This document shows, piece by piece, positions 589 to 24,800 of a stretch of 64,000 nt of DNA. Every line of letters starts with the position of its first letter. Position 1 is the first letter of the stretch. The stretch covers positions 1,426,001 to 1,490,000 of the forward strand of contig NZ_SJRW01000001.1 of NCBI RefSeq assembly GCF_004352825.1, in the 5' to 3' direction. The translations under genes were made by a program, and so were the position numbers. The notes beneath the pieces were generated by a model. The model was not told the origin of the DNA. It ran no database searches and saw only the letters and a program-made list of their open reading frames with translations. Source of the stretch: Luteimonas arsenica (lineage in GTDB: Bacteria; Pseudomonadota; Gammaproteobacteria; Xanthomonadales; Xanthomonadaceae).

Positions 589-589
589 G

Positions 590-3182: not shown

Positions 3183-3191
3183 ACGATCCAC

Positions 3192-3219: not shown

Positions 3220-3239
3220 AGAGTCAAGCGGAGAGCGGC

Positions 3240-4145: not shown

Positions 4146-4158
4146 AGGAGGGTACGAG

Positions 4159-4800: not shown

Positions 4801-5429
4801 TCACGCTGTACGGTTTCCCGCGATCTGGAAACACGCTTAAGGTTCGCATCGCGCTTTGTCTCCTCTCCCTGCCGTTTGAGGAAAGCATGCCGAGCCATGG
4901 TGAGCACAAGCGTCCGCCTTTCACCGAACTCAATCCACTTGGCCAGGTGCCGGTGCTGGTCGATGACGGCGTGATATTGCGCGACAGCCAGGCGATCCTG
5001 GTCTACTTGGCAGCCGCCTATCGGCCAGGTGAATGGGATGGAGTAGCTCCCGCCGAGCGGGGATCTATTGCTCAGTGGATGTCCTTCGCCGCTAACGAAT
5101 TGCAGCACGGGCCCAACGCCCTGCGGCGTATAGTCCAGTTCGATGCGCCGCTTGACAAAAGAGTCGCCTCGAACGCTACCGATCAGGCCTTGGAAATTCT
5201 TGAAAGGCATCTGAGTTCACGGCTATGGCTGGAATCCGGGCGGATGACAATCGCGGATATGGCGTGCGCACCTTACGTGGCATTGGCGCCGCAGGGTGGA
5301 GTCAATCTTGAGCCGTTCGCGGCCATACGCTCGTGGCTTGGCCGTATCGAAGCGGCATCAAACTTTCCTTCGCATCCGGATTGGACCCGACAACCGATCG
5401 CCGATTCGCCCGCACCACCACCCGCATGA
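4797..5429 (+). CDS. Glutathione S-transferase family protein
   Basis: A 210-residue protein with a thioredoxin-like N-terminal domain: LYGFPRSGNTLKVRIALCLL, a cis-proline region GQVPVLVDDG and the glutathione gamma-glutamyl contact DSQAILVYLA. An all-helical C-terminal domain follows (MTIADMACAPYVAL). Length and domain order fit a bacterial cytosolic GST. It is translationally coupled to the upstream PPOX gene and ends the run. With the hydrolase, exporter and flavoprotein it suggests handling of electrophilic compounds, but this is inference from context. Confidence 0.88.
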   Translation: MITLYGFPRSGNTLKVRIALCLLSLPFEESMPSHGEHKRPPFTELNPLGQVPVLVDDGVILRDSQAILVYLAAAYRPGEWDGVAPAERGSIAQWMSFAANELQHGPNALRRIVQFDAPLDKRVASNATDQALEILERHLSSRLWLESGRMTIADMACAPYVALAPQGGVNLEPFAAIRSWLGRIEAASNFPSHPDWTRQPIADSPAPPPA

Positions 5430-5554
5430 TCTGCACCGGCAACAGCGATTAAGGCACGTTATCGGGGATAGGCACGAGAGCCCCGCCGGGCAGGCTGACG
5501 TTCGGCGATGCTCCTTCAGAAGCGACACTGTGCCGTCAGGCTCAAGTGCCGAAG

Positions 5555-6236
5555 TGGAGTTCCCAAACTCGGAGAAACCTGCAGCAAACACCGGGTAGAA
5601 CGTCTGATGCGGGAGAATGGCCTGCGAGCATTGCATGGTTATCGGACCCGGCACATTCCAATGGCCAAACCGCCGGCATTGATTCCCAACTTGCTGCAAC
5701 GCCAATTCACAGCGTCGCATCCGAACGAGGTCTGGGTTACGGACATTACCTACATTCGGACCTGGCAAGGCTGGCTCTATTTGGCTGTCGTCGTGGATCT
5801 GTTCTCTCGCAAAGTTGTTGGCTGTGCCACCAAGCCGACAATTCGCCGCGAGCTGGCTCTGGAAGCCGTTGATAAGGCTATCAGGCGAAGGCGACCTCGC
5901 AAGAGGTTGATCCACTCGGATCAGGGAGCCCAGTACGGCAGTGATGCGTGGCGGCGCTACTGCAAAGCGAACGACCTCGAGCCAAGCATGAGCAGACGAG
6001 GAAACTGCTGGGACAACGCGGTAGCGGAATCATTCTTCGGAAGATTGAAGAAGGAGCGGATCAAGAAGCGCATCTACAACAACCGCGAAGTCGCGATCCT
6101 GGACATATCCGATTACATCGACGGTTTCTACAATCCAACACGCCGTCAAAGCCATCTCGGCGGCGTCAGTCCTGATGAATTCGAGGCAGCGCATCGAACC
6201 CGCCGGTCACGTGTCCACTAAACTCTGGGAACTCCA
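5555..6236 (+). mobile_element. Internally deleted IS3-family element with both ends kept
   Basis: An 11-base perfect inverted repeat bounds the element: TGGAGTTCCCA at 5555-5565 and TGGGAACTCCA at 6226-6236, with the TG...CA ends of IS3-type elements. The catalytic part of orfB lies inside, but orfA and the orfB start are gone, so only about 5 bases separate the left repeat from mid-orfB sequence. No target duplication is seen (GAAG versus ATCC). The right end supplies the stop codon of the metalloprotease-like gene read on the opposite strand. Confidence 0.75.
5571..6221 (+). pseudogene. IS3-family transposase OrfB, N-terminally truncated
   Basis: The frame carries the IS3 OrfB core: CSKHRVERLMRENGLRA, then the integrase domain with TDITY (Asp at 5742-5744), HSDQG (Asp at 5919-5921) and AESFFGRLKKE (Glu at 6027-6029). 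The spacing is the classic DD(35)E, so the catalytic triad is intact. The N-terminal part and the frameshift partner OrfA are deleted. An ATG at 5508 lies outside the element, so a stable product is doubtful. Confidence 0.85.
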
Positions 6237-7208
6237 ATCCATCTGTTCGAGGTTGATCTGATGGATGGTGTCGGCGTCGTGGAGTGTCGCCTCACTGCAT
6301 GACGGTTGCCAGCCGCTGGCCTCGAACAGTTCCACAGCCGTCTCCGGTCGCACGTCAAGCAATTCGGCGATGGCCTTCTCCCTGTCCCGGGCGCGGGCTA
6401 CGTAGGCATGGGCGATCCGATACCCGACCCAGTAGCCGAGGTCGCCGCGACGATCGTCGTCACCGGGGCCGTTGTAGAGCCATCGAGAAAGGTCCGTTTC
6501 GTCACTGTCGGCGAGGAACTCGCTCTCCAGTGCGCACTCGCGGCCGTGTGTCCATGCCCGCAGGTGGGCATTGGCCACCTGGCCGGAGATCAGTTCGCCA
6601 ACGTACTCGGCTCCGCCCTCAAGTAACGTCTGATACAGCAGGGTCGGTTCGGCCATTTCGACCGCGGCGCCATGCTGCTGCACGTGGACGAACTCATGTG
6701 CGATCAGGTGCACGAAGCGATCGCCCACGCTAGCTTGCATCCAGTCGGCGTTACATAGGGTTTCCAGCCCGATCACCACCCCAGCCGGGGTAGTGACTCC
6801 TCCTGTGTTACCACGACCGACCAGGATGGTGACCGGTGGAAAGCGCGCCATCGGCAGCGTCGCCTCAAGCTTGCCCAGCGCGTCGACTACCCGCTCGCGT
6901 ATCTCCGACATGGCTGCAGCACAGGAGCGCGCATGTTCGTACAACGCAGGATTCTTGACGATAGCCTCTGCCAAACGCTCCATCGAGCCGATGCGCATCG
7001 CGGTGAATTCCTTCAACGCGTCGCTCCCTGCGTCCAGATAGTCGCGCTGCAGCGCGTCTGCGCTCGGGCGACCATTGGCGGTGTCGAGCACTCGAAAGAA
7101 GCGGGTGACATCTTCGGTGCGTACATCGGCCGGGGTCGCGCCCGGCTCGCCCGCGAAGCTGCCGGCCGACAGGGTCCCCAGAAGCAACGCCACCAAGACA
7201 CACGGCAT
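6207..7208 (-). CDS. Secreted putative zinc metalloprotease (HExxH), C-terminus altered by IS3
   Basis: A 333-residue protein starting at the ATG at 7206-7208, which has a GGAGGG site directly upstream and opens a signal peptide (MPCVLVALLLGTLSAGSFA). The zinc motif HEFVH is at residues 171-175. A downstream EGGAEYVGEL (about 197-201) may give a third glutamate ligand, as in gluzincins. It is a clear paralogue of the protein at 8030-8944, sharing TEDVTRFF, a GLETLC region and LGYWVGYRIAHAY. The last nine residues (WSSQSLVDT) are encoded by the IS3 end. The paralogue stops soon after the shared GWxP, so only a short tail is affected. It resembles DUF2268-type predicted Zn-dependent proteases; the substrate is unknown. 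Confidence 0.72.
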   Translation of the reverse strand: MPCVLVALLLGTLSAGSFAGEPGATPADVRTEDVTRFFRVLDTANGRPSADALQRDYLDAGSDALKEFTAMRIGSMERLAEAIVKNPALYEHARSCAAAMSEIRERVVDALGKLEATLPMARFPPVTILVGRGNTGGVTTPAGVVIGLETLCNADWMQASVGDRFVHLIAHEFVHVQQHGAAVEMAEPTLLYQTLLEGGAEYVGELISGQVANAHLRAWTHGRECALESEFLADSDETDLSRWLYNGPGDDDRRGDLGYWVGYRIAHAYVARARDREKAIAELLDVRPETAVELFEASGWQPSCSEATLHDADTIHQINLEQMDWSSQSLVDT

Positions 7209-7449
7209 CGCCCTCCAGAGAGAGCAGACGGCGGGCTGCCCGGCAGCCGGCTCCTCGCCCCGGACTTTATGTGAATCAGCTTCTCTGCTTTCCTGACGGA
7301 AGGCATAAGCCTCGTTCGCCGCGAAGGTGACGTGCGATAGAGGCCGGATTTCCGGCCAGTGAGCTTCTCGATAACGACGAATGAATGTCATGGGGTGGGA
7401 TCCTTTCGGAGGCTGCATGTATGTAATGACCCAGCGGTTTCTGCACAGG

Positions 7450-7945
7450 TCAGGCTGCTAAAGCATACGCCTCAGAGGGTGTTTCCATGCCCAGCGCCTG
7501 GTGAGGGCGCCGGTGGTTTTAGAACTGGATCCAGTCGCCGATCACGCGGCTGGCGTGCTGCTGGCTTTCGAAGCGGTGGCGATGCGCATACTGCTCCTTC
7601 AGGTTGCGGATGACCCGCTCGATCATCCCGTTCTGCTGCGGACAGTGCGGGGGGGGTGACCCACAGCTGGTCCGGACGGTCGGCATGGAACTGCCGGTTC
7701 ACCCGGTCCAGCGGGCACGACCGCACCGGGCCCGGGAACGTGGTGCGTACCGGCTTGCCGCGAATCACCCCGGCAATCCTCAACTTGCGCATCAGCCGCT
7801 CCACGGTGCTGCGGGCCACGTCCCACTGCTCCCGCTGCATCTGCCTCCAGACCTTGCGGACGCCATAGACGCGCTCGTTTCAATGAACCCCGTCATGGCT
7901 TGAACCGGCGGTCGAGCTCCGCCTGGGCAAAATGCGTTGGGCGAT
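7450..7945 (-). mobile_element. Scrambled IS3-family element (orfA tail plus deleted orfB)
   Basis: On the minus strand the sequence reads an OrfA tail (FAQAELDRRFKP, stop overlapping the next ATG), an OrfB start (MTGFIE, ATG at 7894-7896), then by deletion jumps to YGVRKVWRQMQREQWD. It continues through DRPDQLWVT and jumps again, with frame change, to a C-terminal region corresponding to RVIRNLKEQYAHRHRF, NHRRPHQALGM and SEAYALAA. The stop is at 7450-7452. The catalytic Asp-Asp-Glu segment is mostly lost. This is a different IS3 subgroup from the element at 5555-6236. It lies between the two paralogous metalloprotease genes. Confidence 0.75.
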
Positions 7946-8029
7946 CGGGGCAGCAGCAGGATGCAGCGCCGCCGTTCGGGATGGCAGGATTCTGGTGGAA
8001 CCCGTGCTGCAGGCTCCACGAGGGGATTG

Positions 8030-8944
8030 TCAGGGCAACGACATGCCCGGGCGCCAACCGCTTTCGCGAAGGAACGCTTCCGGATCGTCCATCTCCAGGA
8101 TCCGCGCCAACGCCGCGCGCTTGTCGTCGGCGCCCGTGTAGTGCGCCTTGACGATGCGATAGCCGACCCAGTAGCCGAGATCATACGGTTCATCGGAGCC
8201 TGCCTCGTAGTCCCACATCCAGGACGTCAGGTCGGTTCCGTGCATGTCGTCCACGAAGGCCGTTTCGATCTCCAGTTCGCGTCCACGAGTCCATTCCGCG
8301 TGGCGCGCATTGCCCACGCCGCCGGAGACCAGCTCGGTTACGAACTCGGCCGCGCCCTCCATCAGTGACATGCGCAGCAGTGTCGGCGACGTGCCGTCGG
8401 CCTCGTCTACTTCGCGTGCCATCGGCTGCTGGGTGTGCACGTACTCGTGCACAATCACGTAGACGAAGCGGTCTTCGGGATCCGGGTTCATGAAGTCGGC
8501 GGCGCAAAGCGCTTCCAAGCCGATGGTCGCCCCGTCGGTGTCCGCGATCCCCACCGGCCGACCGCGCCCCACCACAATCGCCACCGGCGGGTACTCCGCC
8601 CTGGGATACAGGTCGGACAGGGTCTTGAGCGCCGCCGTCAGCCGTCGTTCAACCGCCGGCAGTACCGCCAGGCATTGCCGCGCGTTCTCGTACATCGCCG
8701 GATCGGCTGCAATCCGCTCGGCGATGCGCTCACCGGTGACCCGGCGCAGCCGCGCGAACTCCTTGAGGCTGTGGCTGCCGTGTGCCAGGTACTGGTCCAG
8801 CTGCTCCACGTCCGGTCGACCGCCGGCAGCATCGTAGAGCGCATAGAAGCGCGCGACATCATCGGTTCGAATTTCGGGTGTCACGGCCATGGCCCGTGGC
8901 ATGAAAGCCATGGCGAACGCCAGCGCGAGCACGATTCTGGTCAT
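8030..8944 (-). CDS. Secreted putative zinc metalloprotease (HExxH), intact paralogue
   Basis: A 304-residue protein. I chose the ATG at 8942-8944 because GAGGAG lies 6 bases upstream and the product then starts with a signal peptide (MTRIVLALAFAMAFMPRAMA). The zinc motif HEYVH is at residues 166-170, with a candidate glutamate ligand in MEGAAEF near 196-200. It matches the neighbour at 6207-7208 along most of its length and ends naturally after ESGWRPGMSLP. Both probably act in the periplasm or outside the cell. The family resembles DUF2268-like predicted peptidases; activity is inferred only from the motif. Confidence 0.75.
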   Translation of the reverse strand: MTRIVLALAFAMAFMPRAMAVTPEIRTDDVARFYALYDAAGGRPDVEQLDQYLAHGSHSLKEFARLRRVTGERIAERIAADPAMYENARQCLAVLPAVERRLTAALKTLSDLYPRAEYPPVAIVVGRGRPVGIADTDGATIGLEALCAADFMNPDPEDRFVYVIVHEYVHTQQPMAREVDEADGTSPTLLRMSLMEGAAEFVTELVSGGVGNARHAEWTRGRELEIETAFVDDMHGTDLTSWMWDYEAGSDEPYDLGYWVGYRIVKAHYTGADDKRAALARILEMDDPEAFLRESGWRPGMSLP

Positions 8945-9344
8945 GGTCATCTCCTCGGGTTCCAGCACCATTTCAACCCCGTGCCGTCAGTGCTCAGGGG
9001 CGGCGTCCGGGAGCACGGCTTCCAGCACCGTGCGCTCCCGCGGATTGAAGATTATACGAGCGCCAATGAGGTGGTGCGCCGCACCCTGCGGGCACTGACG
9101 GTCCGGGGCTTCGGCAGTACGTAGGTGATCCGCCGACGGCGCCACCTCGGCGGCCAGTAGCGGCCAGGGCGGCGTAGTGCGTGGAGCGAGGGGAGTCACG
9201 CTTGCTCTATCAGAACCCGCCGATGAGGCGGCTGGTTCCAGTGTTCCGTGTACTATCGTGTTGGCCGCAGTCAGCGCAGGCACGACACCCATGCAACGGA
9301 TCGACGCCTGCGCGACCCACCGAGTGAAGAGGTCGAGACAAGAC
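8945..9344. other. Gene-poor 400-base gap with a possible ParD-like relic
   Basis: No gene with a credible start and homology is seen here. On the plus strand, 9050-9124 encodes DYTSANEVVRRTLRALTVRG and then a stop. This resembles the conserved helix of ParD-type antitoxins (YxSASEVVRxALR), but nothing antitoxin-like precedes it and no toxin follows. It may be a decayed antitoxin end or chance. Confidence 0.3.
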
Positions 9345-9980
9345 ATGCCGGAAGATGCAACTCGGGAACAAGCGCCGGATCCAGTACAGGGGCGGGCGCG
9401 ACGCCTGTTCTCCAGCCATCGTCTGTTCGAGGTCATGATCGCGTTCGGCGTGCTGTTGATCTCCACCGTCTCGGTGTTCGTGGCGTACAACGCCAACCGG
9501 ACCCAGGAACGGATACTGGCGGCCAGCGTCTGGCCCGCCCTGGTATTCGGTACGAGTAATGCCTCGACCGAGGGCGGCAAGCAGATATCACTTGACCTGC
9601 TGAACCGTGGAGTCGGGCCGGCACGTATCCGCTGGGCCGAAGTGCTGTACGAGGGCAAACCCGTCTCCGGCCCTTCTTCATTGCTGGCTGCATGCTGTGG
9701 TGGAGCGGAGGCGGAGCAAGGGCTGCTGGTAATGAACAGCGGCATCCAGCGGCGCGTGGTGGGGGCCAACGAATGGATTCAGGTGATGCGAGTGCAGCCA
9801 ATGGATGCGCCGATGCCGGCGTACGAGAAGCTTGACGATGCGTTGAGCAGGATCCGTGCCCGGCTGTGCTACTGCTCCGTCCTGGACGAATGCTGGCTGT
9901 TGGAGAGCGAACGGCCGGAGCCTGCCGCGGTGCGGACATGCCCGGCTGCCCCAGAGGTGCTGTGGGAAAGCAATTCTTGA
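9345..9980 (+). CDS. Membrane-anchored protein of unknown function
   Basis: A 211-residue protein with a short N-terminal cytoplasmic part, one membrane span at about residues 28-49 (FEVMIAFGVLLISTVSVFVAY) and a soluble domain predicted to face the periplasm. The soluble part holds several cysteines (ACCGG, CYCSVLDEC and a later Cys), compatible with disulfides. I preferred the ATG at 9345 (GAGG about 10 bases upstream); the frame is open to 9177 with other possible starts. I do not recognise the family and the neighbours give no clear role. Confidence 0.55.
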   Translation: MPEDATREQAPDPVQGRARRLFSSHRLFEVMIAFGVLLISTVSVFVAYNANRTQERILAASVWPALVFGTSNASTEGGKQISLDLLNRGVGPARIRWAEVLYEGKPVSGPSSLLAACCGGAEAEQGLLVMNSGIQRRVVGANEWIQVMRVQPMDAPMPAYEKLDDALSRIRARLCYCSVLDECWLLESERPEPAAVRTCPAAPEVLWESNS

Positions 9981-10002
9981 GTGCGGCGGGCAGGACGCTT
10001 GC

Positions 10003-10842
10003 TCACCGGAATGACAGCGTGAGCACACGAAGCGCTTCACGTGATCGATGGTCACGGAGCGTGGTGTAGAGCATCACATCCTGCAGGGGAATCGATGGCA
10101 GGGAGAGGCTTTTGCCAATGTCGATCGTGCCGGATGGCGCGGCGCGGCGCGCCAGCACCGCCACGGCCAATCCGCCGGCTGCAGCAGCGCCGAGGATCGC
10201 GGCGCCTTTGCCGACGAATACTTCATTCCATTCGATTCCGGCCCTGTCGAGCGCACGAACCGCCACCGCTCTGATGCGGCACGATTCGCCTTGCGTTGCG
10301 AGCGGCAGGGGGCGGTGGACATGGGGTTCCCAGCCAACGGCCGCGAACCAGGAGAATGTCTCGGCGAAGGCCGCCCGGCCCTGCTTGCGGCGGCCCTCCG
10401 GACGCAATGCCAGCACTGCATCGAGTTCACCCTGCTCGTAGGCCTGCATCAGCTCGCGCGTGCCGGCCACGTGCATCTCGACCAGAAGGCCGGGGTCGTG
10501 ATCCCGGATGCGCCGCAACAACGACGGCAATTCGCCGCCAACCAGCAAATGACTGATACCGATCGCCAGCTGGCGCCGCTCGACCTCGAACGCAGCGGCC
10601 GCGCGGTCGTGGGTCGAAACCAGCTCTCGTGCAATCCCGAGAAACGTCAGCCCTTCGGCGGACAGTCGCACGTGTCGAGGCGTGCGCTCGAGCAGGCGCC
10701 GGCCCAATTGCTCCTCCAGCCGGCGCAGCTTGAGGCTGACCGCGGGCTGGGTGGTTCCCAGCACGTCGGCGGCACGGGTGAAACTCTCCAGGTCGGCGGC
10801 CAGCACGAACGCCTTGACCGCATCGATATCCATCGCCTTCAT
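10003..10842 (-). CDS. LysR-family transcriptional regulator
   Basis: A 279-residue protein with the LysR helix-turn-helix (IDAVKAFVLAADLESFTRAA, then GTTQPAVSLKLRRLEEQLG) and a substrate-binding-like domain from about residue 90. Starts at 10842 or 10833 are both possible; neither has a strong ribosome-binding site. It is divergent from the lipocalin-like gene at 10951 across a 108-base AT-rich gap, so it may control that gene, the isomerase and the reductase that follow. Ligand unknown. Confidence 0.87.
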   Translation of the reverse strand: MKAMDIDAVKAFVLAADLESFTRAADVLGTTQPAVSLKLRRLEEQLGRRLLERTPRHVRLSAEGLTFLGIARELVSTHDRAAAAFEVERRQLAIGISHLLVGGELPSLLRRIRDHDPGLLVEMHVAGTRELMQAYEQGELDAVLALRPEGRRKQGRAAFAETFSWFAAVGWEPHVHRPLPLATQGESCRIRAVAVRALDRAGIEWNEVFVGKGAAILGAAAAGGLAVAVLARRAAPSGTIDIGKSLSLPSIPLQDVMLYTTLRDHRSREALRVLTLSFR

Positions 10843-10950
10843 TCGCTACGATTCGAATTCTAGATGATAGATATATTTATAGATGCGTTCCAATCATGAT
10901 GCAATCGACCTAGGCTGGGCTCCCTTGCCCGTTGCCACTGGAGACCCGCC
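10843..10950. promoter_or_regulatory. Divergent AT-rich control region between LysR gene and lipocalin gene
   Basis: This 108-base gap contains an unusually AT-rich stretch at about 10861-10886, including ATAGATATATTTATAGAT, in an otherwise GC-rich region. Its position between divergent genes and its imperfect symmetry suit a LysR-type operator (T-N11-A class) overlapping two promoters. No exact boxes are assigned. Confidence 0.4.
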
Positions 10951-11445
10951 ATGAAACCCATGATCGGTGTGATGTTCACGATGCTCGCAGGACTCGCCAC
11001 ACGTGACATGCCTGGTCCCCACGACGAGTTCCCACTGCACGGTACCTGGTCCCTGGTGGCCGCGGACAAGATCCTGCCCGGTGGGGAGCTGGAGCGAGAC
11101 TATGGCGAGAACCCCAAGGGCAGACTGATCGTCGACCCCCAGGGCAGATACTCGCTGCAGATCCTCAGATCCGAGCGTCTGCGTTTTGCTACCGACAACA
11201 AGGCCGACGGTAGCGCCGATGAATTCGAGTCCGCGGTGATTGGCAGCAGCACCCACTACGGCACGGTCACGATAGACCAGAGGGTGGGGGAGCTCGTCTT
11301 CTCGATCGAGGGCTCATCCTTCCCGAATTGGGAAGGCACCGTGCAACGACGCCAGTACAGGCTGGAGCGCGAGGAGTTGAGCTACCGGGTGCCGCCACGG
11401 GCGGACGGCAGCATCCCGATCTCGGTCTGGCGACGGGTCGATTGA
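10951..11445 (+). CDS. Lipocalin-like domain protein
   Basis: A 164-residue protein whose body resembles the lipocalin-like 5 family: LHGTWSLVAADKILPGG, then GRLIVDPQGRYSLQI, a central SSTHYGTVTID strand, and a basic C-terminal end (SIPISVWRRVD). The hydrophobic N-terminus (MKPMIGVMFTMLAGLA) may be a weak signal peptide. Such proteins bind small hydrophobic ligands and often sit beside catabolic enzymes. It heads a plus-strand run with the isomerase and CurA-type reductase and is divergent from a LysR regulator. Confidence 0.65.
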   Translation: MKPMIGVMFTMLAGLATRDMPGPHDEFPLHGTWSLVAADKILPGGELERDYGENPKGRLIVDPQGRYSLQILRSERLRFATDNKADGSADEFESAVIGSSTHYGTVTIDQRVGELVFSIEGSSFPNWEGTVQRRQYRLEREELSYRVPPRADGSIPISVWRRVD

Positions 11446-14258: not shown

Positions 14259-14915
14259 TCACTGCTCCCGGCCTTCGCTGGATTCCGACGCTGGCGCATG
14301 CAGGGCATCGTCCAATCGCTTGCAGCGTCGGACCAGCGCCAGGATGGCCTGTTCCAGTTCGTCCTGCGCCTGCGCCGGGGTGATGTCGCCGGCGACGGCA
14401 GCATCGGACAGTGCGTCGGCGGCGCCAAGCATGCCCCACAGACCGGCCAGGGGCACGCCCCCGGCGCCTGCGAACGGTGCGAAGGTCGCCGCGCACTTGC
14501 CTAGAAAGTCCTGCTGGTAGCGGCGCTTCACCGCGGCCAGCTCGGGTGAACCGCCCAGGGCGGCGAGGACGCCGGGGATCTCACTGCCTTGGGTCAGCAC
14601 GCAGTCGACGTAGCTGGCGGCGATGATGCGCGCCTTGGCCTTCAGCGTCGGTCGCGCCGCGGCGATGGCCGCGTCGAGGATCGCGGTCTGGCGGAGGTCG
14701 TAGTCTTCGTAGAGCGCGGCCAGCAGGCCGTTGCGGGTACCGAAGTGGTCGTACACGACCGGTTTGGTGACTCCGGCCGCCTCGGCAAGCCGACCTAGCG
14801 TCAGCGCGTCAGTGCCCTCGTCACGGATCAAGCGCCAGGAGACGTCGAGCAACTGGCGCCTGCGCTCGGCGCGCGGCAGGCGACGAAGGGCAGGGGCTTT
14901 GGACGGTCGGGGCAA
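14259..14915 (-). CDS. TetR-family transcriptional repressor
   Basis: A 218-residue regulator with a TetR DNA-binding domain: RRQLLDVSWRLIRDEGTDAL, LGRLAEAAGVTKPVVYDHFG and RNGLLAALYEDYD at about residues 19-70. A divergent C-terminal ligand domain follows. It lies 17 bases downstream of the quinone reductase gene on the same strand and probably shares its promoter. The perfect 25-base palindrome at 15557-15581 in that promoter is its likely operator, which would make the pair autoregulated and inducible by a quinone or other electrophile. The operator link is inference. Confidence 0.85.
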   Translation of the reverse strand: MPRPSKAPALRRLPRAERRRQLLDVSWRLIRDEGTDALTLGRLAEAAGVTKPVVYDHFGTRNGLLAALYEDYDLRQTAILDAAIAAARPTLKAKARIIAASYVDCVLTQGSEIPGVLAALGGSPELAAVKRRYQQDFLGKCAATFAPFAGAGGVPLAGLWGMLGAADALSDAAVAGDITPAQAQDELEQAILALVRRCKRLDDALHAPASESSEGREQ

Positions 14916-15582: not shown

Positions 15583-15741
15583 ATTGTGGCGTGCCCAGTG
15601 CAGCGCTCCAGGATCCGAACCGCGCACCTCGACCTCGCGTGCATCAATTCAGGCAGCGCTCCAAGCGATTTCCAAGCGACGATGGTGAGCACGGTACATC
15701 TGCGATGCGGCCTATAAGAGTGCGGTGCCCATTCGGTATCG

Positions 15742-15818
15742 GTATACCTGTGACTTCCCGAAACTGTACCGTAAAACTGTGACTTGGCCGGAACGGGTTG
15801 CAAAAGTCACAGCTTTAC
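15742..15818. repeat. Three-copy CTGTGACTT repeat, two copies forming a large inverted repeat
   Basis: Direct copies of CTGTGACTT lie at 15748-15756 and 15777-15785, 29 bases apart, and an inverted copy at 15804-15812. The second and third extend to 15- to 16-base arms (GTAAAACTGTGACTT at 15771-15785; complement of GTAAAGCTGTGACTTT at 15803-15818) with one mismatch and a loop of about 17 bases. Multiple internal repeats like this occur at IS21-type element ends and in recombinase binding regions. No gene is associated. It lies 60 bases left of the dif site. Confidence 0.6.
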
Positions 15819-15877
15819 CAAGCCCGGTTTCAGGCGGGCCAGCCACCGTGCCAGTCGCGCGGTCCACGTTCTGCTCA

Positions 15878-15905
15878 ATTGCGCATAATGCACATTATGT
15901 AAAAT
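15878..15905 (+). other. dif: dif-type XerC/XerD recombination site
   Basis: The 28 bases split into a XerC arm ATTGCGCATAA, a 6-base centre TGCACA and a XerD arm TTATGTAAAAT. Against the E. coli dif site as I remember it, matches are 9/11 in the left arm, 4/6 in the centre and 10/11 in the right arm. CATAATG and CATTATG form the inverted core. Such sites resolve chromosome dimers at the terminus with FtsK; filamentous phages and other Xer-exploiting elements integrate there. It lies exactly at the border between the scarred accessory region and conserved genes. Confidence 0.8.
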
Positions 15906-15945
15906 GATTGGCTGAGTCCTCCGACCAACCACCAAGGAGCAGCCA

Positions 15946-16032
15946 ATGAGAAGCAAGCGAAAACTGCACGAACCCGCCGTAAAGATCCTGGAAGTGTCCT
16001 ACTGGCCTATGCAACAACGACTGGCATCGTGA
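15946..16032 (+). pseudogene. 28-codon ORF with strong RBS, possible IS OrfA start relic
   Basis: AAGGAG stands 7 bases before an ATG at 15946-15948, and the ORF runs 28 codons (MRSKRKLHEPAVKIL...) to a TGA at 16030-16032. The basic start resembles the first residues of IS3-type OrfA proteins (RSKRK-HxPAFK), after which similarity stops. It may be the stub of a transposase left beside dif, or a chance ORF. Confidence 0.25.
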
Positions 16033-16171
16033 ATGGTTCGGGAGCGAGGCTGGGTGACTCGGCCGCGGCTTACGGCACGGCTTCGAACGGCAGCATTCCA
16101 CCGGACTCCTTGCCGACCCGGCACACAGCCAGCACAGTGGGCAGACCTTTCTCCCACGCCAAAGGATCCCC

Positions 16172-17197
16172 ATGCGAGCCGTCGGCTACCAGTCCCCGCA
16201 GCCCATCGATGCCGACAACGCGCTGGTGGACATCGAACTCCCACGCCCGGTCGTCGCGGGCCGCGACCTGCTGGTCGAAGTGCGCGCGGTTTCGGTGAAT
16301 CCGGTCGACACCAAGGTCCGCCGCAACGCCGCGCCGGCGCCGGGCGACTGGAAGGTACTGGGCTGGGACGCGTCCGGCGTGGTGGTCGAGGCCGGCCCCG
16401 ACGCCACGCTGTTCAAGCCGGGCGACGAGGTCTTCTACGCCGGCGCCCTCACCCGCCCCGGCACCAACGCCGAGTTCCACCTGGTCGACGAACGCATCGT
16501 CGGCCACAAGCCGCGCTCGCTCGACTGGGCGGAAGCGGCGGCCATGCCGCTGACTTCGATCACCGCCTGGGAGGCGCTGTTCGAACGCCTGGACGTCCGC
16601 GGCCACGAAGTCCCGGGCGCTGCGCCGGCGATCCTGATCATCGGCGGCGCTGGCGGGGTCGGTTCGATGGCGACGCAACTGGCGCGCCGGCTGACCAACC
16701 TGACCGTGATCGCGACCGCCTCGCGGCCCGAAACCGCGGACTGGGTGCGCGAGCTTGGCGCCCACCACGTCGTCGACCATCGCCAGCCGCTGGCGCCACA
16801 GGTGGCCGCGCTCGGCATCAGGGCGCCCGCCTTCGTGTTCTCGACCACGCAGACGCAGCTGCACCTTGAGCAGATCGCGGAACTGATCGCGCCCCAGGGA
16901 CGGCTGGCGCTGATCGACGACCCTGCCAGCTTCGACATCGGCCTGTTCAAGCGCAAGAGCGTGTCGGTGCATTGGGAATACATGTTCACGCGGTCGATGT
17001 TCGACACGTCCGACATCGCGGCCCAGGGGCAGCTGCTGGAGGAGGTCTCGCGGCTGGTCGACGATGGCAGCTTGCGCAGCACGCTCACCGGGCGGCTGGG
17101 CACGATCGACGCGGCCACGCTGAAGGAGGCCCATCGTCTGCTGGAATCCGGGACGGCGCGCGGCAAGCTCGTGCTGGAAGGGTTCCCGGCGGCCTGA
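16172..17197 (+). CDS. Zinc-binding alcohol dehydrogenase-family oxidoreductase
   Basis: A 341-residue medium-chain reductase of the ZADH/quinone-reductase group: LVEVRAVSVNPVDTKVRRN near residue 38, GWDASGVVVEAG, SITAWEALFERL, and an NADP Rossmann motif LIIGGAGGVGSMATQLARR near residue 155. The structural and catalytic zinc cysteines of classical ADHs are not evident, so it is more likely an NADPH quinone or enone reductase. It is the first conserved gene right of dif, without an obvious operon partner. Upstream 130 bases carry no clear feature. Confidence 0.85.
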   Translation: MRAVGYQSPQPIDADNALVDIELPRPVVAGRDLLVEVRAVSVNPVDTKVRRNAAPAPGDWKVLGWDASGVVVEAGPDATLFKPGDEVFYAGALTRPGTNAEFHLVDERIVGHKPRSLDWAEAAAMPLTSITAWEALFERLDVRGHEVPGAAPAILIIGGAGGVGSMATQLARRLTNLTVIATASRPETADWVRELGAHHVVDHRQPLAPQVAALGIRAPAFVFSTTQTQLHLEQIAELIAPQGRLALIDDPASFDIGLFKRKSVSVHWEYMFTRSMFDTSDIAAQGQLLEEVSRLVDDGSLRSTLTGRLGTIDAATLKEAHRLLESGTARGKLVLEGFPAA

Positions 17198-17221
17198 CCT
17201 GACCGCGGCGGACGCCTGCCG

Positions 17222-17644
17222 TCAGCGGCAGGCGTCCCATACCTGGTCGTCCAGCTTCCGCAGCAGGTCGAAGTTCCGCTTCAGGCCCACCCGCCGCAGG
17301 GTCTGTTCGCGGCGGTCGCGGACAGCCTTGCAGCGGTCGGGCGGCGCGCGCTTGCGCACGCCGGCGCCAGCTCTGGACGGGCCTTGCCGACGATGCTCCG
17401 GCGGGGCCTGCCCTGCCCCGGCGTCCGGATACGCTGCCGCGGGGACGATGGTGTCCGGAACGGCGGCGTAGCTGGCCGCCAGGCGCTCGCCTTCGCCGCA
17501 GTCGCCGCTGGTGAACGTGACATGCCCGCCACGATCAATGCACTTCTGCACGCTCTGCGCCGTGGCGGGCATGGCCCAGGCCAATCCCGCCAGGAGCAGC
17601 AGCGCAAGCGCGCCCGTCCCGTACTTCGCCGGTTCTTCCCGCAT
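17222..17644 (-). CDS. DUF4124-type secreted protein
   Basis: A 140-residue protein with a signal peptide (LALLLLAGLAWAMPATAQ, about residues 13-30). A short DUF4124-like segment follows, QKCIDRGGHVTFTSGDCGEGE, whose two cysteines could bridge. The rest is Pro/Ala-rich and then basic, ending in a small helical segment with a Cys near the C-terminus. The family is common in Xanthomonadaceae and has no defined function. It is convergent with the reductase gene upstream. Confidence 0.6.
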   Translation of the reverse strand: MREEPAKYGTGALALLLLAGLAWAMPATAQSVQKCIDRGGHVTFTSGDCGEGERLAASYAAVPDTIVPAAAYPDAGAGQAPPEHRRQGPSRAGAGVRKRAPPDRCKAVRDRREQTLRRVGLKRNFDLLRKLDDQVWDACR

Positions 17645-18481: not shown

Positions 18482-18517
18482 GGCGAGCCTCCGGGCGCTG
18501 CGGCAGCATCCTCCGCC

Positions 18518-19921
18518 ATGGACGCTTACCTGCCCTTCAATGCCGACCTGCTTCGCCGCTACGACCGGCCGGGGCCGCGCTACACCTCCTACCCGACCGC
18601 GCCGCAGTTCAGCAACGCCTTCGGGGAGGAACAGCTGCGCGAGGCCGCGGCGGCCAGCAATGGCGATCCGATCCCGCGCCGGCTGTCTGTCTACGTCCAC
18701 GTCCCCTTCTGCGTCAGCCCCTGCTTCTATTGCGGCTGCAACCGCATCATCACCCGCGACAAGTCGCGCGCCGAGACCTACTTGGCGCGCCTGTACCGCG
18801 AGATCGACATGACCGCGGCGCTGTTCGACCGCGACCGCGACGTGGTCCAGCTGCACCTGGGCGGTGGCACGCCGAACTTCATGGATCCGGGCCAGATCGG
18901 CGAGCTGGTCGACGCCCTGCGTCGCCAGTTCCACTTCGCGCGGCCCGAGGAAAGCGACATCTCGATCGAACTCGACCCGCGCTTCGTGTCCCCGGCCGAC
19001 ATCGCCGCGCTCGGCCGCATCGGCTTCAACCGGGCCAGCTTCGGCGTGCAGGACTTCGACCCGGTGGTGCAGGAGGCGGTCAACCGCATCCAGTCGGTGG
19101 AGGAGACGCGCGCCGTGGTCGACGCCTGCCGCGCGAACGGCTTCCGCTCGGTCAACGTCGACCTGATCTACGGCCTGCCGAAGCAGAACCCCGAGGGCTT
19201 CGCGCGCACGCTCGACACGCTGCTGGAGATGCGCCCGGACCGCCTGGCGGTCTACGGCTACGCCCACCTGCCCGAGGTCTTCCGCCCGCAGAACCAGATC
19301 AAGGCCGAAGACCTGCCCAGCGCCGAGGAGAAGCTGGGCCTGCTGGAACTGGCGATCACGAAGCTGTCGGCCGGCGGCTACGAATACATCGGCATGGACC
19401 ACTTCGCCCTGCCCGACGACGACCTGGCCATGGCCCAGGCCCGCGGCAGCCTGCACCGCAACTTCATGGGCTACACCACCCACGCCGACAGCGACCTGAT
19501 CGGCCTGGGCGTGAGCGCGATCAGCCACATCGGCGACACCTTCAGCCAGAACCCGCGCGACCTGCCCTCCTGGCAGATCGCCATCGACGAGGGCCGGCTG
19601 CCGGTGTTCCGCGGCATGCAGCTGGACGAGGACGACGTCATCCGCGCCGACCTCATCCAGCAGTTGATGTGCCAGGCCGAGGTGCCGATGGACGCGCTGG
19701 AGCGGCGCCACGACATCGTCTTCAACGACTATTTCGCCGAGTCCCTGGAGAAGCTGCGGCCGCTCGAGGACGACGGCCTGGTGCGCGTCGAGCCCCGCCG
19801 CATCCGCGTGACCGCGCGCGGCCGGCTGCTCTTGCGTAACATCGCCATGTGCTTCGACCGATACCTCGCCCCGCCAGCAGCCGATCCCGCCACCCGGCCC
19901 CGCTTCTCGCGCGCCATCTGA
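18518..19921 (+). CDS. hemN: Oxygen-independent coproporphyrinogen III oxidase
   Basis: A 467-residue radical-SAM enzyme that converts coproporphyrinogen III to protoporphyrinogen IX without oxygen. The iron-sulfur motif CxxxCxxC is at residues 65, 69 and 72 (CVSPCFYCGC); the early PGPRYTSYPTAPQF, LHLGGGTPNF and a HemN C-terminal domain (GMQLDEDDVIRADLIQQLMC) are all present. I chose the ATG at 18518 (MDAYLPFNADLL), the conserved family start, although the frame is open to 18398. There is no ribosome-binding site before it and the FNR box is close, suggesting a leaderless mRNA. The FNR gene follows after 19 bases and is probably cotranscribed. Confidence 0.95.
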   Translation: MDAYLPFNADLLRRYDRPGPRYTSYPTAPQFSNAFGEEQLREAAAASNGDPIPRRLSVYVHVPFCVSPCFYCGCNRIITRDKSRAETYLARLYREIDMTAALFDRDRDVVQLHLGGGTPNFMDPGQIGELVDALRRQFHFARPEESDISIELDPRFVSPADIAALGRIGFNRASFGVQDFDPVVQEAVNRIQSVEETRAVVDACRANGFRSVNVDLIYGLPKQNPEGFARTLDTLLEMRPDRLAVYGYAHLPEVFRPQNQIKAEDLPSAEEKLGLLELAITKLSAGGYEYIGMDHFALPDDDLAMAQARGSLHRNFMGYTTHADSDLIGLGVSAISHIGDTFSQNPRDLPSWQIAIDEGRLPVFRGMQLDEDDVIRADLIQQLMCQAEVPMDALERRHDIVFNDYFAESLEKLRPLEDDGLVRVEPRRIRVTARGRLLLRNIAMCFDRYLAPPAADPATRPRFSRAI

Positions 19922-19940
19922 CGCCCGGGGAGGCCTGCCC

Positions 19941-20699
19941 GTGGTGAACAAGGTCGCGTTTCCGCGCGTCGATCCCAGCATCGTGGCCGATGACGGCGAC
20001 GAGTTCCATTTCTGTTCCACCTGCGCCTTTTCCCAGGCCTGCATGGCCCAGGGCATGGACAAGGCCTCGCTGGGCGAGCTGCACATGCTGGTCGAACACG
20101 TCGGCCCGCTGCACGCCGGCGACCACGTGTTCCGCGTCGGCGATCCCTTCGAGGCGATCGCCGCGGTGCGCGCGGGCACGGTCAAGACCTATGTCATCGA
20201 TGCCAACGGGCGCGAGCACGTGCTCGGCTTCCATTTCCCGGGCGAGGTGATCGGCCTGGACGGCATCGACGGCGACACCTACCCCTGCAACGCGGTGGCG
20301 CTGGACACGGTGATGCTATGCCGGTTCTCGTTCCCCAAGATCTCGGTGCTGGCCGGGCGCCTGCCGGGGCTGCAGCAGCATCTGTTCCGCCTGCTCAGCC
20401 GCGACATCGGCCGCGCCGCCCTGCTCTCCGGCGACTGGACCGCCGACGAGCGCCTGGCCGCCTTCCTGGTCACGATGTCGCGGCGCCTCGCTGCCCGCGG
20501 CTTCTCCCCCGACCGTTTCCAGCTGACGATGGCGCGCACCGACATCGCCAACTACCTGCGCCTGGCGCCGGAAACCGTCAGCCGCGTGCTCAAGCGCTTC
20601 CAGGCCGAGGGCCTGCTGCGCGTGGACCGCCGCGAAGTGGAAATCGCCGACCAGGCCCGCCTCGGCGCGATGGCCGCGCCGGTGCTCTGGAAGCAGTAA
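19941..20699 (+). CDS. fnr: FNR-type oxygen-sensing transcriptional regulator
   Basis: A 252-residue CRP/FNR regulator with a GTG start at 19941 and a GGGGAGG site upstream. The N-terminal CxxCxxxxxC (Cys25, 28, 34) plus Cys127 matches the four ligands of the oxygen-labile [4Fe-4S] cluster of E. coli FNR. The cAMP-fold domain spans about 45-150. The helix-turn-helix reads TRTDIANYLRLAPETVSRVLKRF; the E-xxSR pattern recognises TTGA-type half-sites. It lies just after hemN. Likely targets in view are hemN, norB, azurin and ccoN, each with a TTGAC box upstream. Confidence 0.93.
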   Translation: MVNKVAFPRVDPSIVADDGDEFHFCSTCAFSQACMAQGMDKASLGELHMLVEHVGPLHAGDHVFRVGDPFEAIAAVRAGTVKTYVIDANGREHVLGFHFPGEVIGLDGIDGDTYPCNAVALDTVMLCRFSFPKISVLAGRLPGLQQHLFRLLSRDIGRAALLSGDWTADERLAAFLVTMSRRLAARGFSPDRFQLTMARTDIANYLRLAPETVSRVLKRFQAEGLLRVDRREVEIADQARLGAMAAPVLWKQ

Positions 20700-20709
20700 G
20701 CCGGGGCGC

Positions 20710-20723
20710 TTGACCTGGGTCAT
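20710..20723 (+). promoter_or_regulatory. FNR/DNR-type box upstream of norB
   Basis: TTGAC-CTGG-GTCAT, 54 bases before the chosen norB ATG. Its right half differs from the hemN and ccoN boxes (ATCAA) but equals the azurin box. No good -10 is visible at the class II position (about 20746-20751). Confidence 0.6.
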
Positions 20724-20777
20724 GGCGACCCCGGGCCCGCGACGACGACCATGCGGCATCCGCAACGGGAGCCTGTC

Positions 20778-23105
20778 ATGGGGAACTACCGCAAACTCTG
20801 GATCGGCCTGGCCGTCCTGCTCGTCTCCTCGTTCGCCGTCCTGCTCTGGGCCGGCGGCGAGATCTTCCGCGCCGCGCCGCCGGTTCCCGAGCAGGTGGTC
20901 TCGGAGGACGGCCGCGTGGTCTACACCCGCGCCGACATCGAACGCGGCCGCCAGGTCTGGCAGTCGATCGGCGGCATGCAGCTGGGCTCGATCTGGGGCC
21001 ATGGCGGCTACGTCGCCCCGGACTGGAGCGCCGACTGGCTTCACCGCGAGGCGGTCGAGATCCTCGACGCCTGGGCTGCCGAAGGCGGCACCGCCGCCAC
21101 CTGGGCGGAACTCCCGGCGGCAGAACGCGCCACCCTGCAGGGCCGCCTGCAGGAAATGATGCGTGCGAACACCTGGGATCCCGCCACCGGCACCATCACC
21201 CTGACCGCCGAGCGCGTGGCGGCGATCGAGCGGGTGGCGGCGCACTACGTGAGCCTGTTCGGCAACGATCCGGCCACCGCGGAGCTGCGCGAAGCCTATG
21301 CGATGAAGGAGAACACCATCCATGAGGCCGAGTACCGGCAGGCGATGACGGCGTTCTTCTGGTGGTCGGCCTGGGCGGCGACCACCGAGCGCCCGCTCGC
21401 GGCCGGCGACAGCCTGGTGCCCGACAAGACCGGCGTGGTGCCCAAGCAGGTCACCTACACCAACAACTGGCCGTCCGAGCCGCTGGTCGGCAACACGCCG
21501 GCGGCCCCGCTCTGGGCCTGGTCGGCCTTCAGCGTGCTGTTCCTGATCGCGGGCATCGCCCTGCTCGGCTGGCACCACGCGGTGACCCACGACAAGGAGG
21601 ATCGCGGCCACACCATCCCCTCCAGCGATCCCTTCGCGGCCCTGCGCATCACGCCGTCGATGCGCGCGGTGGCCAAGTACTTCTGGGTGGTGCTGGCGCT
21701 GTTCCTGCTGCAGATCCTGCTCGGCGCGATCACCGCGCACTATCAGGTCGAGGGCCAGGTCGCCTACGGCTTCGCGCTGTCGGAGATCCTGCCCTACTCG
21801 CTGTCGCGCACCTGGCACACGCAGCTCGCGGTGCTGTGGATCGCGGTGGCGTGGCTGGGCACCGGCCTGTACATCGCGCCGGCGCTGTCGGGACATGAAC
21901 CGAAGTTCCAGCGTTTCGGCGTCAACTTCCTGTTCGTGTCGCTGCTGATCATCGTGGTCGGCTCCTTCGCGGGCCAGTGGCTGGCGGTGATGCAGAAGCT
22001 CGGGCTGGAGCACAACTTCTGGTTCGGCCACCAGGGCTGGGAATACGCGGACATGGGCCGCTTCTGGCAGTGGTACCTGTTCATCGGCCTGCTGCTGTGG
22101 GTGGCCCTGGTCGGCCGCGCGCTGTGGCCGGTGCTGCGCGACAAGGCGTCCGAAAGCCGCCACATCGTCGCCCTGCTGTTCATGTCCACGGCCGCCATCG
22201 GCATCTTCTTCGCTTCGGCGCTGATGTGGGGCGAGCACACCCACATCTCCGAGGTCGAGTACTGGCGCTGGTGGCTGGTGCACCTGTGGGTCGAGGGCTT
22301 CTTCGAAGTGTTCGCGACCGCGGTGATGGCGCTGATCTTCACGAAGCTCGGCCTGCTCAAGACCTCCACGGCCACGGTCGCGGTGCTGTTCGCCACGATC
22401 ATCTTCATGGCCGGCGGCGTGCTGGGCACCCTGCACCACCTGTACTTCGTCGGCACGCCGACGGCGGTGGTGGCCCTGGGCGCCAGCTTCTCGGCGCTGG
22501 AAGTGGTGCCGCTGGCCTACATCGGCTTCGAGGCCTACCAGACCTGGAAGTACGGCAAGGCGACGCCGTGGATGGCGCGCTACCGCTGGCCGGTGATGTT
22601 CTTCATCGCGGTCTCGTTCTGGAACCTGGTGGGCGCCGGCCTGTTCGGCTTCCTCATCAACCCGCCGCTGTCGCTGTACTACATGCAGGGCCTGAACCTG
22701 ACCCCACTGCACGGCCACACCGCCCTGTTCGGCGTGTACGGCATGCTCGGCATCGCCCTGGTGCTATTCTGCCTGCGCGGCCTGCGCGGCCAGATGGTCT
22801 GGGACACGAAGGCGCTGAAGCTGTCGTTCTGGGCGCTCAACATCGGCCTGGCGCTGATGGCCGCGCTGACCCTGCTGCCGCTGGGCACCATGCAGCTCCT
22901 GGCCGCGATCGAGCACGGCTATGCCTACGCGCGCTCGGCGGAGTTCATGCAGCAGCCGATCGTGGACCTGCTGGTGTGGATGCGGGTGCCCGGCGACACG
23001 ATATTCAGCGTCGGCGCCTTCGCCCTGACCTGGTTCGTGCTGCGGCTGTGGATCGCGCCGCGGCGCGACCCGGCGCTGGGCCGCGAAGGCACGGAGCGGG
23101 CCTGA
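20778..23105 (+). CDS. norB: Quinol-dependent nitric oxide reductase (qNor)
   Basis: A 775-residue single-subunit NO reductase that reduces two NO to N2O with quinol electrons in the inner membrane. The long N-terminal extension (VVYTRADIERGRQVWQSIGG, GSIWGHGGYVAPDW) marks the qNor form. A heme-copper-type core of about 12 spans follows, with histidines in TWHTQLAVLWIAVAW, GEHTHISEVEYWRWW and TLHHLYFVGTP. I preferred the ATG at 20778 (CGGGAG 7 bases upstream) to that at 20751. No norC is present, as expected. The NnrS and SirB2-like genes follow closely. The box at 20710 suggests control by an FNR/DNR protein. Confidence 0.93.
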   Translation: MGNYRKLWIGLAVLLVSSFAVLLWAGGEIFRAAPPVPEQVVSEDGRVVYTRADIERGRQVWQSIGGMQLGSIWGHGGYVAPDWSADWLHREAVEILDAWAAEGGTAATWAELPAAERATLQGRLQEMMRANTWDPATGTITLTAERVAAIERVAAHYVSLFGNDPATAELREAYAMKENTIHEAEYRQAMTAFFWWSAWAATTERPLAAGDSLVPDKTGVVPKQVTYTNNWPSEPLVGNTPAAPLWAWSAFSVLFLIAGIALLGWHHAVTHDKEDRGHTIPSSDPFAALRITPSMRAVAKYFWVVLALFLLQILLGAITAHYQVEGQVAYGFALSEILPYSLSRTWHTQLAVLWIAVAWLGTGLYIAPALSGHEPKFQRFGVNFLFVSLLIIVVGSFAGQWLAVMQKLGLEHNFWFGHQGWEYADMGRFWQWYLFIGLLLWVALVGRALWPVLRDKASESRHIVALLFMSTAAIGIFFASALMWGEHTHISEVEYWRWWLVHLWVEGFFEVFATAVMALIFTKLGLLKTSTATVAVLFATIIFMAGGVLGTLHHLYFVGTPTAVVALGASFSALEVVPLAYIGFEAYQTWKYGKATPWMARYRWPVMFFIAVSFWNLVGAGLFGFLINPPLSLYYMQGLNLTPLHGHTALFGVYGMLGIALVLFCLRGLRGQMVWDTKALKLSFWALNIGLALMAALTLLPLGTMQLLAAIEHGYAYARSAEFMQQPIVDLLVWMRVPGDTIFSVGAFALTWFVLRLWIAPRRDPALGREGTERA

Positions 23106-23108
23106 GCC

Positions 23109-24350
23109 ATGGGCAACCAGGGCCAATCCGGGCACGACGGCGCTTCGGCGCCGTTCCTGCGGCTCGCGGCGGCGCCGCATCGGCTGATGTTCTTCGTCGG
23201 TGCCGGCAACGTGCTGCTGGCGATGGCCTGGTGGAGCGCCTGGCTGGTCGCGAACCGCTGGCCGGCGCTGCTGTCGATGCACCAGCCCGAACCCTATGCC
23301 GGCTGGCTGCACGCCATCGTCATGCAGTACCAGATGCTGCCGAGCTTCATCTTCGGCTTCCTGCTGACCACCTTCCCGAAGTGGATGGGCCTGCCGGAGG
23401 CGGCGCGCTGGCACTACGTGCCGGTGGGACTGGGCATGTTCGGCGGCCAGGTGGCGACCCTGCTCGGAGCGATCGGTGCGCCCGCCGGGATCGAGGTCGG
23501 ACTGGCCATGACCCTGGCCGGCTGGACCGCCGGGCTGGCCTTCCTGGGCGAGCTGCTGCTGCGCGACCGCAACCGCACCTGGCATGCGCGTTCGTGCTTC
23601 GCGGCGCTGGTGCTGGGCTGGGTCGGCCTGGCCGCCTTCGGCGCGGCGCTGCTGGGCGGGTCGCCGTCGTGGGCCTTCGCCAGCATCAAGATCGGCACCT
23701 TCGGCCTGCTGCTGCCGGTCTACCTGACGGTGGCGCACCGGATGTTCCCGTTCTTCGCCGGCAACGTGGTGGCGGGCTACGTGTCGTGGCGGCCGCTGTG
23801 GCTGCTGGCCGCGTTCTGGGCGCTGTGCCTGGCCCACCTGGGCCTGGAGCTGGTGCGCGCCTATGCCTGGCTGTGGATCGTCGACCTGCCGCTGCTGGCG
23901 CTGTCGCTGCTGGCCGTGTGGCGCTGGTGGCCGCGCGGGCGGAAGCCGGGGATCCTGGCGGTGCTGTTCCTGGGCCTGGCCTGGATGCCGGTGACCTTCG
24001 CGCTGTACGCGGCGCAGAGCCTGGCCTACTTCGGCGGCGAAGGCTTCGTCCTCGGGCGCGCGCCGGCGCACGCCCTGTTCGTCGGCTTCTTCGGCAGCCT
24101 GCTGGTGGCCATGGTGACCCGCGTCACCCAGGGCCATTCGGGGCGGAAGATCGAAATGCCCGGCGTGGCCTGGTTCGCCTTCGTGGCGATCCAGCTGGTG
24201 ACGGTGGCGCGCATCCTGGCCGACGTGTCCGCGGATGCGGGCGCCTGGTGGGCGGTGGCCGCCGTCGGCTGGCTGCTGGCGCTGGGGCCGTGGGTGGCGC
24301 GGATCGGCAGGATCTACCTGTCGCCACGCGCCGACGGCAAGCCGGGGTGA
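23109..24350 (+). CDS. nnrS: NnrS family membrane heme-copper protein
   Basis: A 413-residue polytopic protein with about 12 spans. Family-typical motifs are APHRLMFFVGAGNVLLAMAWW at the start, MLPSFIFGFLLTTFPKWMG, LLLPVYLTVAHRMFPFF and LVAMVTRVTQGHSGR. NnrS proteins bind heme and copper and protect against nitrosative stress. The gene starts 3 bases after norB and is almost certainly cotranscribed. It is followed 4 bases later by a SirB2-like gene. Confidence 0.9.
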   Translation: MGNQGQSGHDGASAPFLRLAAAPHRLMFFVGAGNVLLAMAWWSAWLVANRWPALLSMHQPEPYAGWLHAIVMQYQMLPSFIFGFLLTTFPKWMGLPEAARWHYVPVGLGMFGGQVATLLGAIGAPAGIEVGLAMTLAGWTAGLAFLGELLLRDRNRTWHARSCFAALVLGWVGLAAFGAALLGGSPSWAFASIKIGTFGLLLPVYLTVAHRMFPFFAGNVVAGYVSWRPLWLLAAFWALCLAHLGLELVRAYAWLWIVDLPLLALSLLAVWRWWPRGRKPGILAVLFLGLAWMPVTFALYAAQSLAYFGGEGFVLGRAPAHALFVGFFGSLLVAMVTRVTQGHSGRKIEMPGVAWFAFVAIQLVTVARILADVSADAGAWWAVAAVGWLLALGPWVARIGRIYLSPRADGKPG

Positions 24351-24354
24351 GCCG

Positions 24355-24762
24355 ATGATCGAGTTCTATCCGCAGATCAAGTGGGTGCACGTGGCCAGCG
24401 TGATGGCCAGCGTCACCCTGTTCGCGCTGCGCGGGCTGCTGGTGCAGGCCGGGCGCCCGCGCTGGGCGATGGCCGCGCCGGTGCGCTACCTGAGCTACGC
24501 CATCGACACCACCCTGCTCACCGCGGCCTTCATGCTGCTGACGATCCTGCCCGGGGCGATGTTCGCCAACGGCTGGCTGGCGGCCAAGATCGTGCTGCTG
24601 ATCGTCTATATCGGCCTGGGCAGCTTCGCGCTCAAGCGGGGGCGGACGCCGCGGGTGCGGCTGGCCTGCTACCTGGTCGCGCTGGCGGTATTCGGCTTCA
24701 TGTACAGCATCGCCCGCGCCCACCACCCCGGCGGGATCCTGTGGATGCTGCTCGCCACTTGA
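24355..24762 (+). CDS. SirB2-like small membrane protein
   Basis: A 135-residue protein with four probable membrane spans. WVHVASVMASVTLFALRGLL, SYAIDTTLLTAAFMLL and FMYSIARAHHP match the SirB (invasion gene expression up-regulator) family. I chose the ATG at 24355; the frame is open upstream inside nnrS. It ends the norB-nnrS run. The histidines near spans 1 and 4 are conserved in the family and might bind heme, but the role in NO metabolism is inferred from context only. Confidence 0.75.
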   Translation: MIEFYPQIKWVHVASVMASVTLFALRGLLVQAGRPRWAMAAPVRYLSYAIDTTLLTAAFMLLTILPGAMFANGWLAAKIVLLIVYIGLGSFALKRGRTPRVRLACYLVALAVFGFMYSIARAHHPGGILWMLLAT

Positions 24763-24800
24763 CCCATGTCATGGCCGCGGCCCCGGGGCGGTCGGATAAT
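24759..24800 (+). promoter_or_regulatory. FNR/DNR box and -10 of the azurin promoter
   Basis: TTGAC-CCAT-GTCAT at 24759-24772 is followed by GATAAT at 24795-24800. If transcription starts near 24807 the box centre sits at -41.5, the classic class II activator position. The box overlaps the stop region of the SirB2-like gene. Confidence 0.75.

Follow-up and report, generated by a model that had tools for sequence, protein, structure and literature searches.

In the Xer/dif pathway FtsK tracks along KOPS to dif and activates XerCD, and chromosome dimers are resolved. The dif site of E. coli, the reference for the base counts of our site and its arms, has 28 bp, with two 11-bp arms around 6 bp, and lies at the terminus with KOPS pointing inward. 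Mobile elements use dif sites as well, and insertion sequences of the IS1202 family that target dif are said to be the subject of a second paper, by Siguier and colleagues, besides the one cited below. Of 161 representative dif sites from proteobacteria, roughly one in four adjoins phage, insertion sequence, transposase or integrase genes (PMC2731167). The IS1202-family elements target dif from the XerC side (PMC10132070), and Legionella has a mobile element that carries a dif mimic and inserts itself at dif (PMC9765430). Transposons of the Tn5053/Tn402 type hunt res sites instead (PMC7765201).

The locus described here carries the sequence ATTGCGCATAATGCACATTATGTAAAAT on the plus strand at positions 15878-15905 of the window, as we call the whole 64,000-nucleotide stretch of Luteimonas arsenica DNA that was analysed (G000:C1:1441878-1441905). 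It has the build of a chromosomal dif: within 28 bp an XerC-binding arm ATTGCGCATAA (15878-15888, plus strand; 9/11 against the E. coli site, with G at base 4) and an XerD-binding arm TTATGTAAAAT (15895-15905, plus strand; 10/11) enclose a 6-bp centre, the hexamer TGCACA (15889-15894, plus strand), which was also found in other sites of the genus. The initial annotation had called it a near-canonical dif, and both of its counts, 23 of 28 bases identical to the E. coli site and 19 of 22 across the arms, were reproduced; the inverted CATAATG/CATTATG core is present at 15878-15905 as claimed. The bases that differ from E. coli are the outer XerC bases, two of the centre and one of the XerD arm. 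The dif of Xanthomonas campestris (PMC2731167) is the same kind of site, identical to ours at 21 of 28 bases by eye, and differs at base 4, at two centre bases and at four outer bases of the XerD arm. Since the match is unique, coincides with the switch of KOPS and skew, is conserved and is accompanied by XerD and XerC-like genes, we are nearly certain that 15878-15905 is the chromosomal dif of a Luteimonas-type bacterium, at the end point of replication.

The similarity was also said to be too close for chance, and this held: a 26-base core pattern, allowing three mismatches at most, has a single match in the window, and none of 100 dinucleotide shuffles contains it. The search of the whole genome for dif-like sites (at most three mismatches, 2,965,592 bases) returned the window site and no other, a single-copy count that covers the 7 contigs (2.97 Mb) of the L. 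arsenica assembly. Apart from its own reverse complement, no other 28-mer in 144 kb scored 15/22 or more on both arms; the next-best two-arm score was 14/22, in a 104-kb part of the same sequence, and a repeat search around dif gave nothing relevant to it.

The chromosomal position of the site is indicated by the polarity of KOPS (GGGNAGGG) and by GC skew, both followed in sampled stretches of one contig (C1) rather than in the whole genome. In a contiguous 144 kb (C1:1366001-1510000) 16 of the 17 KOPS to the left of dif (within 76 kb) point right and 13 of the 14 to its right (within 68 kb) point left, that is 16+/1- against 1+/13- (Fisher p 9e-7); the polarity is imperfect, one KOPS on either side running the opposite way. 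The best switch point, C1:1440888-1443411, brackets dif: the last right-pointing KOPS before it stands at 14888-14895 (plus strand), 990 bp off, and the first left-pointing one after it at 17411-17418 (minus strand), 1.5 kb off. Four control octamers gave p values from 0.14 to 1, two of them resting on just 7 occurrences each. The cumulative GC skew over the same 144 kb has its maximum at 15593 (C1:1441593), 285 bp left of dif, against 257 bp for the X. campestris site as its row reads (PMC2731167). Taking the 17 sampled pieces together (364 kb of C1), we counted 49+/9- KOPS on the left and 2+/27- on the right, and the skew is +0.023 and -0.019, respectively; a 20-kb piece at C1:700001 runs against the trend (KOPS 1+/3-, skew slightly negative). 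A KOPS listing with 508 forward and 170 reverse places in all, the first 100 of them all plus, was excluded from the polarity analysis. Both switches proposed as a check by the initial annotation thus coincide with the site in the sampled C1 stretches, and a better dif at a skew switch elsewhere, which it had named as the refuting case, was looked for and not found.

In relatives, with a relaxed dif pattern, exactly one site was found in 50 of the 52 genomes of the genus, that of L. arsenica included, and the two without a match are 89% and 73% complete; a stricter pattern matched 42 of 61 genomes, again including the one studied here. Base 4 of the XerC arm is unusual for the genus: T stands there in 48 of the 50 sites, and G in our site and in G030. 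The dif of two closed relatives is placed mid-chromosome, at 1,451,153 of 2,915,489 in G070 (49.8%) and at 1,507,097 of 3,020,716 in G071 (49.9%), and both records begin with dnaA (by Pfam in G070; in G071 by a frame whose leader and Walker motif are the same). The distance of dif from dnaA comes from these two genomes, that of L. arsenica being in 7 contigs. Such an assembly leaves room for a gap holding another dif, in which case the sequence in the window would be a chance or decayed likeness and the working dif would lie elsewhere. The only match in 2.97 Mb, the two polarity switches that coincide with it and the one site in 50 of 52 genomes contradict this, and we rejected it, on uniqueness and on the switches, as having hardly any probability left.

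The terminus-dif reading is therefore backed by the single copy, the skew and KOPS switch, the 50 of 52 genomes and the mid-chromosome position in two closed relatives, whose right flanks are collinear with ours. The genome also encodes XerD and an XerC-like recombinase: an XerD gene at C2:567007 (367 bits, above the XerD cut-off) and a gene at C2:351804 (286 bits) that we infer to be XerC; three weaker recombinase matches lie at C2:3950-4744 and C2:216622. By analogy with the Xer/dif pathway, XerCD would bind this dif, FtsK would activate them and dimers would be resolved here: crossovers between sister chromosomes after replication may leave a circular dimer, FtsK, guided from both sides by KOPS that point to dif, would join the two dif copies at the division septum and trigger XerD, then XerC, and one crossover would yield two monomers. 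The site is a true, ordinary chromosomal dif and an expected feature; it marks the chromosome terminus and allows the genome to be oriented.

In the relatives dif is a hotspot for mobile elements: filamentous prophages, tyrosine-recombinase islands and the end of a Tni-type transposon are found at it. The hotspot, and in particular the Tni-type element found on the side of XerD, lies in relatives and outside the window, and it deserves a study of its own. The prophages were followed by their Zot-like protein, phrog_197, which matched 21 places in 17 of the 52 genus genomes. Matches were also obtained in 5 of 14 control genomes; weak ones therefore mean little, and 9 weak places, none of them near dif by their coordinates, were set aside. 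The strong matches (E below 1e-50) comprise 12 places in 11 genomes. Ten of these are no more than 2.5 kb from dif, and two (in G004, and one of two in G005) are on other contigs. These congeners resemble the hosts of filamentous phages and other IMEX integrated at dif (CTXphi, phiLf, Cf16-v1; PMC2731167), and the two prophages examined also have, as in IMEX, a half site of XerC arm plus centre at the presumed far end. These half sites, at L046:2312 (plus strand) and L047:16615 (minus strand), have the full dif at the other prophage end, and similar ones are present in some viral contigs.

The initial annotation had left open a second reading, a dif-like site carried by an integrated Xer-dependent element, and in the form of an attachment-site copy left by a filamentous phage or similar element, with remains in the flanks, it draws on these congeners: of the 11 with a strong Zot match, 10 have a Zot-like prophage no further than 2.5 kb from dif, and the half sites taken as far ends lie 7.7 and 6.7 kb left of dif in G022 and G030. 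In L. arsenica itself the 144 kb searched contain neither a second dif nor a half site that combines arm and centre; two XerC-arm matches of 10/11, at L002:9951 and L053:14419, have no such centre, and by our estimate chance would give as many. Zot matches and the KfrA_N-associated tyrosine recombinase family that accompanies dif in relatives are both at 0 in its genome. An intact Xer-integrated element at this dif is not supported, neither a second site (in 144 kb) nor a Zot gene or a recombinase of the family (in the genome) having been found, and unlike the IMEX hosts (PMC2731167) the genome shows no such prophage, only a doubtful 44-bp scar.

The flanks are disturbed, though. The 44 bp directly to the left of dif (15834-15877) resemble the left dif flanks of G003 and G022, with alignment scores of 21 and 19 (each 0/300 shuffles, 34 flanks compared), the next best being G013 and G066 at 13.5 each (1/300 and 0/300 shuffles). 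G022 has a strong Zot match and a filamentous prophage near its dif, whereas G003 shares the similar flank yet has no Zot match. The flank pattern had 0 matches in the viral contigs searched, and the best flank score among 92 dif-like sites in viral Zot loci was 11, between the 99% (10) and the 99.9% (13) levels of the shuffles. Because the viral contigs gave no support, the 44 bp were not upheld as a phage end and are graded no higher than a possible prophage-end scar. Between the left collinear block and dif our sequence also exceeds G070 by about 29 kb, which would fit an insertion at this place. Taken together, an attachment-site copy seems unlikely to us, and regardless of what came in, the chromosome still has its dif in the site at the KOPS switch.

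Collinearity with G070 and G071 on the left is found beyond -33.8 kb from our dif, save for a short out-of-order block at -36.9 kb, and on the right it starts at +2.6 kb (+1.35 kb counting short matches), the stretch from the hemN-like radical SAM gene onwards (18514-24764, plus strand) following their right dif flank. Between dif and the right-hand match, 15906-17227 has no match there in either relative and consists of a short stretch and a zinc-type dehydrogenase gene (16172-17197). The right flank at 15905-16029 was considered as a remnant of an IS3-family element, from the likeness of its start; this was not upheld, Pfam giving 0 families for its 28-residue frame. To the left, a unit of about 109 bp (15731-15839, plus strand) that carries repeated CTGTGACTT motifs has one other copy, 96% identical and in direct orientation, 16.3 kb further left at C1:1425392-1425503 (L002:19392-19503). 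These are the only two copies in the genome, none was found in 51 other genomes of the genus, and the stretches containing the unit had no match in the plasmids or phages searched; it may be the end of an insertion element. Window positions 1-11000 are mostly of lower GC (0.585 to 0.65) and lie inside a zone of about 34 kb left of dif that is absent from the two closed relatives. A broken frame at 409-1025 looks to us like the start of an IS5-type transposase, and Pfam found no family over the cut-off for 409-702.

The second kind of element at dif in the relatives is a tyrosine recombinase gene beside a divergent KfrA_N gene. Relatives of this recombinase with at least 68% identity occur in 16 of the 52 genus genomes, and in 27 of the 52 when any identity is allowed (E up to 0.001). 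The dif contig carries it in 14 of the 16 genomes, 13 times within 14 kb and once at 27 kb, and G010 and G007 have it on a different contig; an additional, partial copy in G016 lies 44 kb away. The pair recalls TnpT/TnpS, a divergent helper and a tyrosine recombinase (PMC7157771), in its arrangement.

The third kind is a large transposon whose end begins with TGTCGG. The long form of this end was found in 5 of the 52 genus genomes by whole-genome search, once in each, always in the same orientation and 27-40 bp outside the XerD arm (G036 27, G005 28, G063 31, G012 35, G066 40). A shorter form gave 7 matches in 7 of 398 genomes of the order: the four with one mismatch are all beside dif (G272 25, G281 28, G038 28, G049 57 bp), the three with two mismatches are not. 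All 9 close copies therefore lie 25-57 bp beyond the XerD arm, and none was found away from dif (long form in the 52 genus genomes, short form in the 398 of the order). The end patterns were derived from dif-flanking copies and six of the nine (G036, G063, G066, G005, G038, G049) were known beforehand; the independent finds, G012, G272 and G281, are 3/3 beside dif. A scan of genome contigs for dif plus TGTCGG gave 15 stretches, which we do not count as evidence because, by a rough estimate, a similar number would arise by chance among many thousands of dif sites. Only the stretches that agree in end sequence or in neighbouring genes as well are suggestive, and L113, L122 and L125 seem to be identical with the genomes G005, G036 and G066.

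The copy in G012 is the only one of the nine shown complete: a 21-kb Tni-type transposon (G012:C4:235701-256793, L143 19993 to L145 8901). Its dif-proximal end is 35 bp beyond the XerD arm, and TniQ, TniB (split over two frames) and TniA lie between the inverted TGTCGGTGA ends at C4:235701 and 256793. In G063 TniB and TniQ lie between two inverted ends. A 5-bp target duplication was not seen in these two, the flanking 5-mers being different. The KfrA_N/recombinase pair lies behind the end in G036, G038, G049, G272 and G281 (5/9), and the whole pair was not seen in the other four copies. The element shares with Tn5053/Tn402 (PMC7765201) tniA, tniB and tniQ and insertion beside a recombinase site; unlike them it adjoins dif, not res, and in 5/9 the KfrA_N/recombinase pair then follows its dif-proximal end. 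With the IS1202 family (ISAjo2 type; PMC10132070) it shares TGT...ACA ends and a fixed orientation beside dif, but those are 1.5-kb insertion sequences 5 bp from the XerC side, whereas this is a Tni-type element 25-57 bp from the XerD side.

It appears somewhat probable to us that a group of large Tni-type transposons in the relatives (with tniABQ and, in many cases, a TnpT/TnpS-like pair and anti-phage cargo) hunts chromosomal dif. They would insert in a single orientation, 25-57 bp beyond the XerD arm, and would probably recognise dif by the XerCD, or FtsK-XerD, bound to it, leaving dif intact and the cargo at the terminus. A survey of Tn7-like target selectors (PMC10293859) does not use the word dif in its main text, and a Tni-type transposon that targets dif was not described among the literature matches listed, whose coverage leaves most subscription papers outside. 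Should XerCD-bound dif indeed act as a landing mark for transposons, the choice of targets by sensing a recombinase would reach from plasmid res to chromosomal dif via a Tni-type machine, and dif-proximal DNA would be a place to look for defence systems.

The neighbouring genes of six loci were scanned with PADLOC, and five match defence models: Upx (L103), PD-Lambda-5 (L045), Gabija with GajA and GajB (L049), type I restriction (L048) and, in L107, a cytosine methylase assigned to DruM2 or type II; L105, where a single protein was scanned, gave no match. In L103, L045, L048, L049 and L107 the defence-model genes are near KfrA_N and near dif, and in four of these loci a tyrosine recombinase adjoins KfrA_N. 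On a Dyella contig (L115) dif stands between two KfrA_N genes with the start of a recombinase beyond each, as if two elements flanked it.
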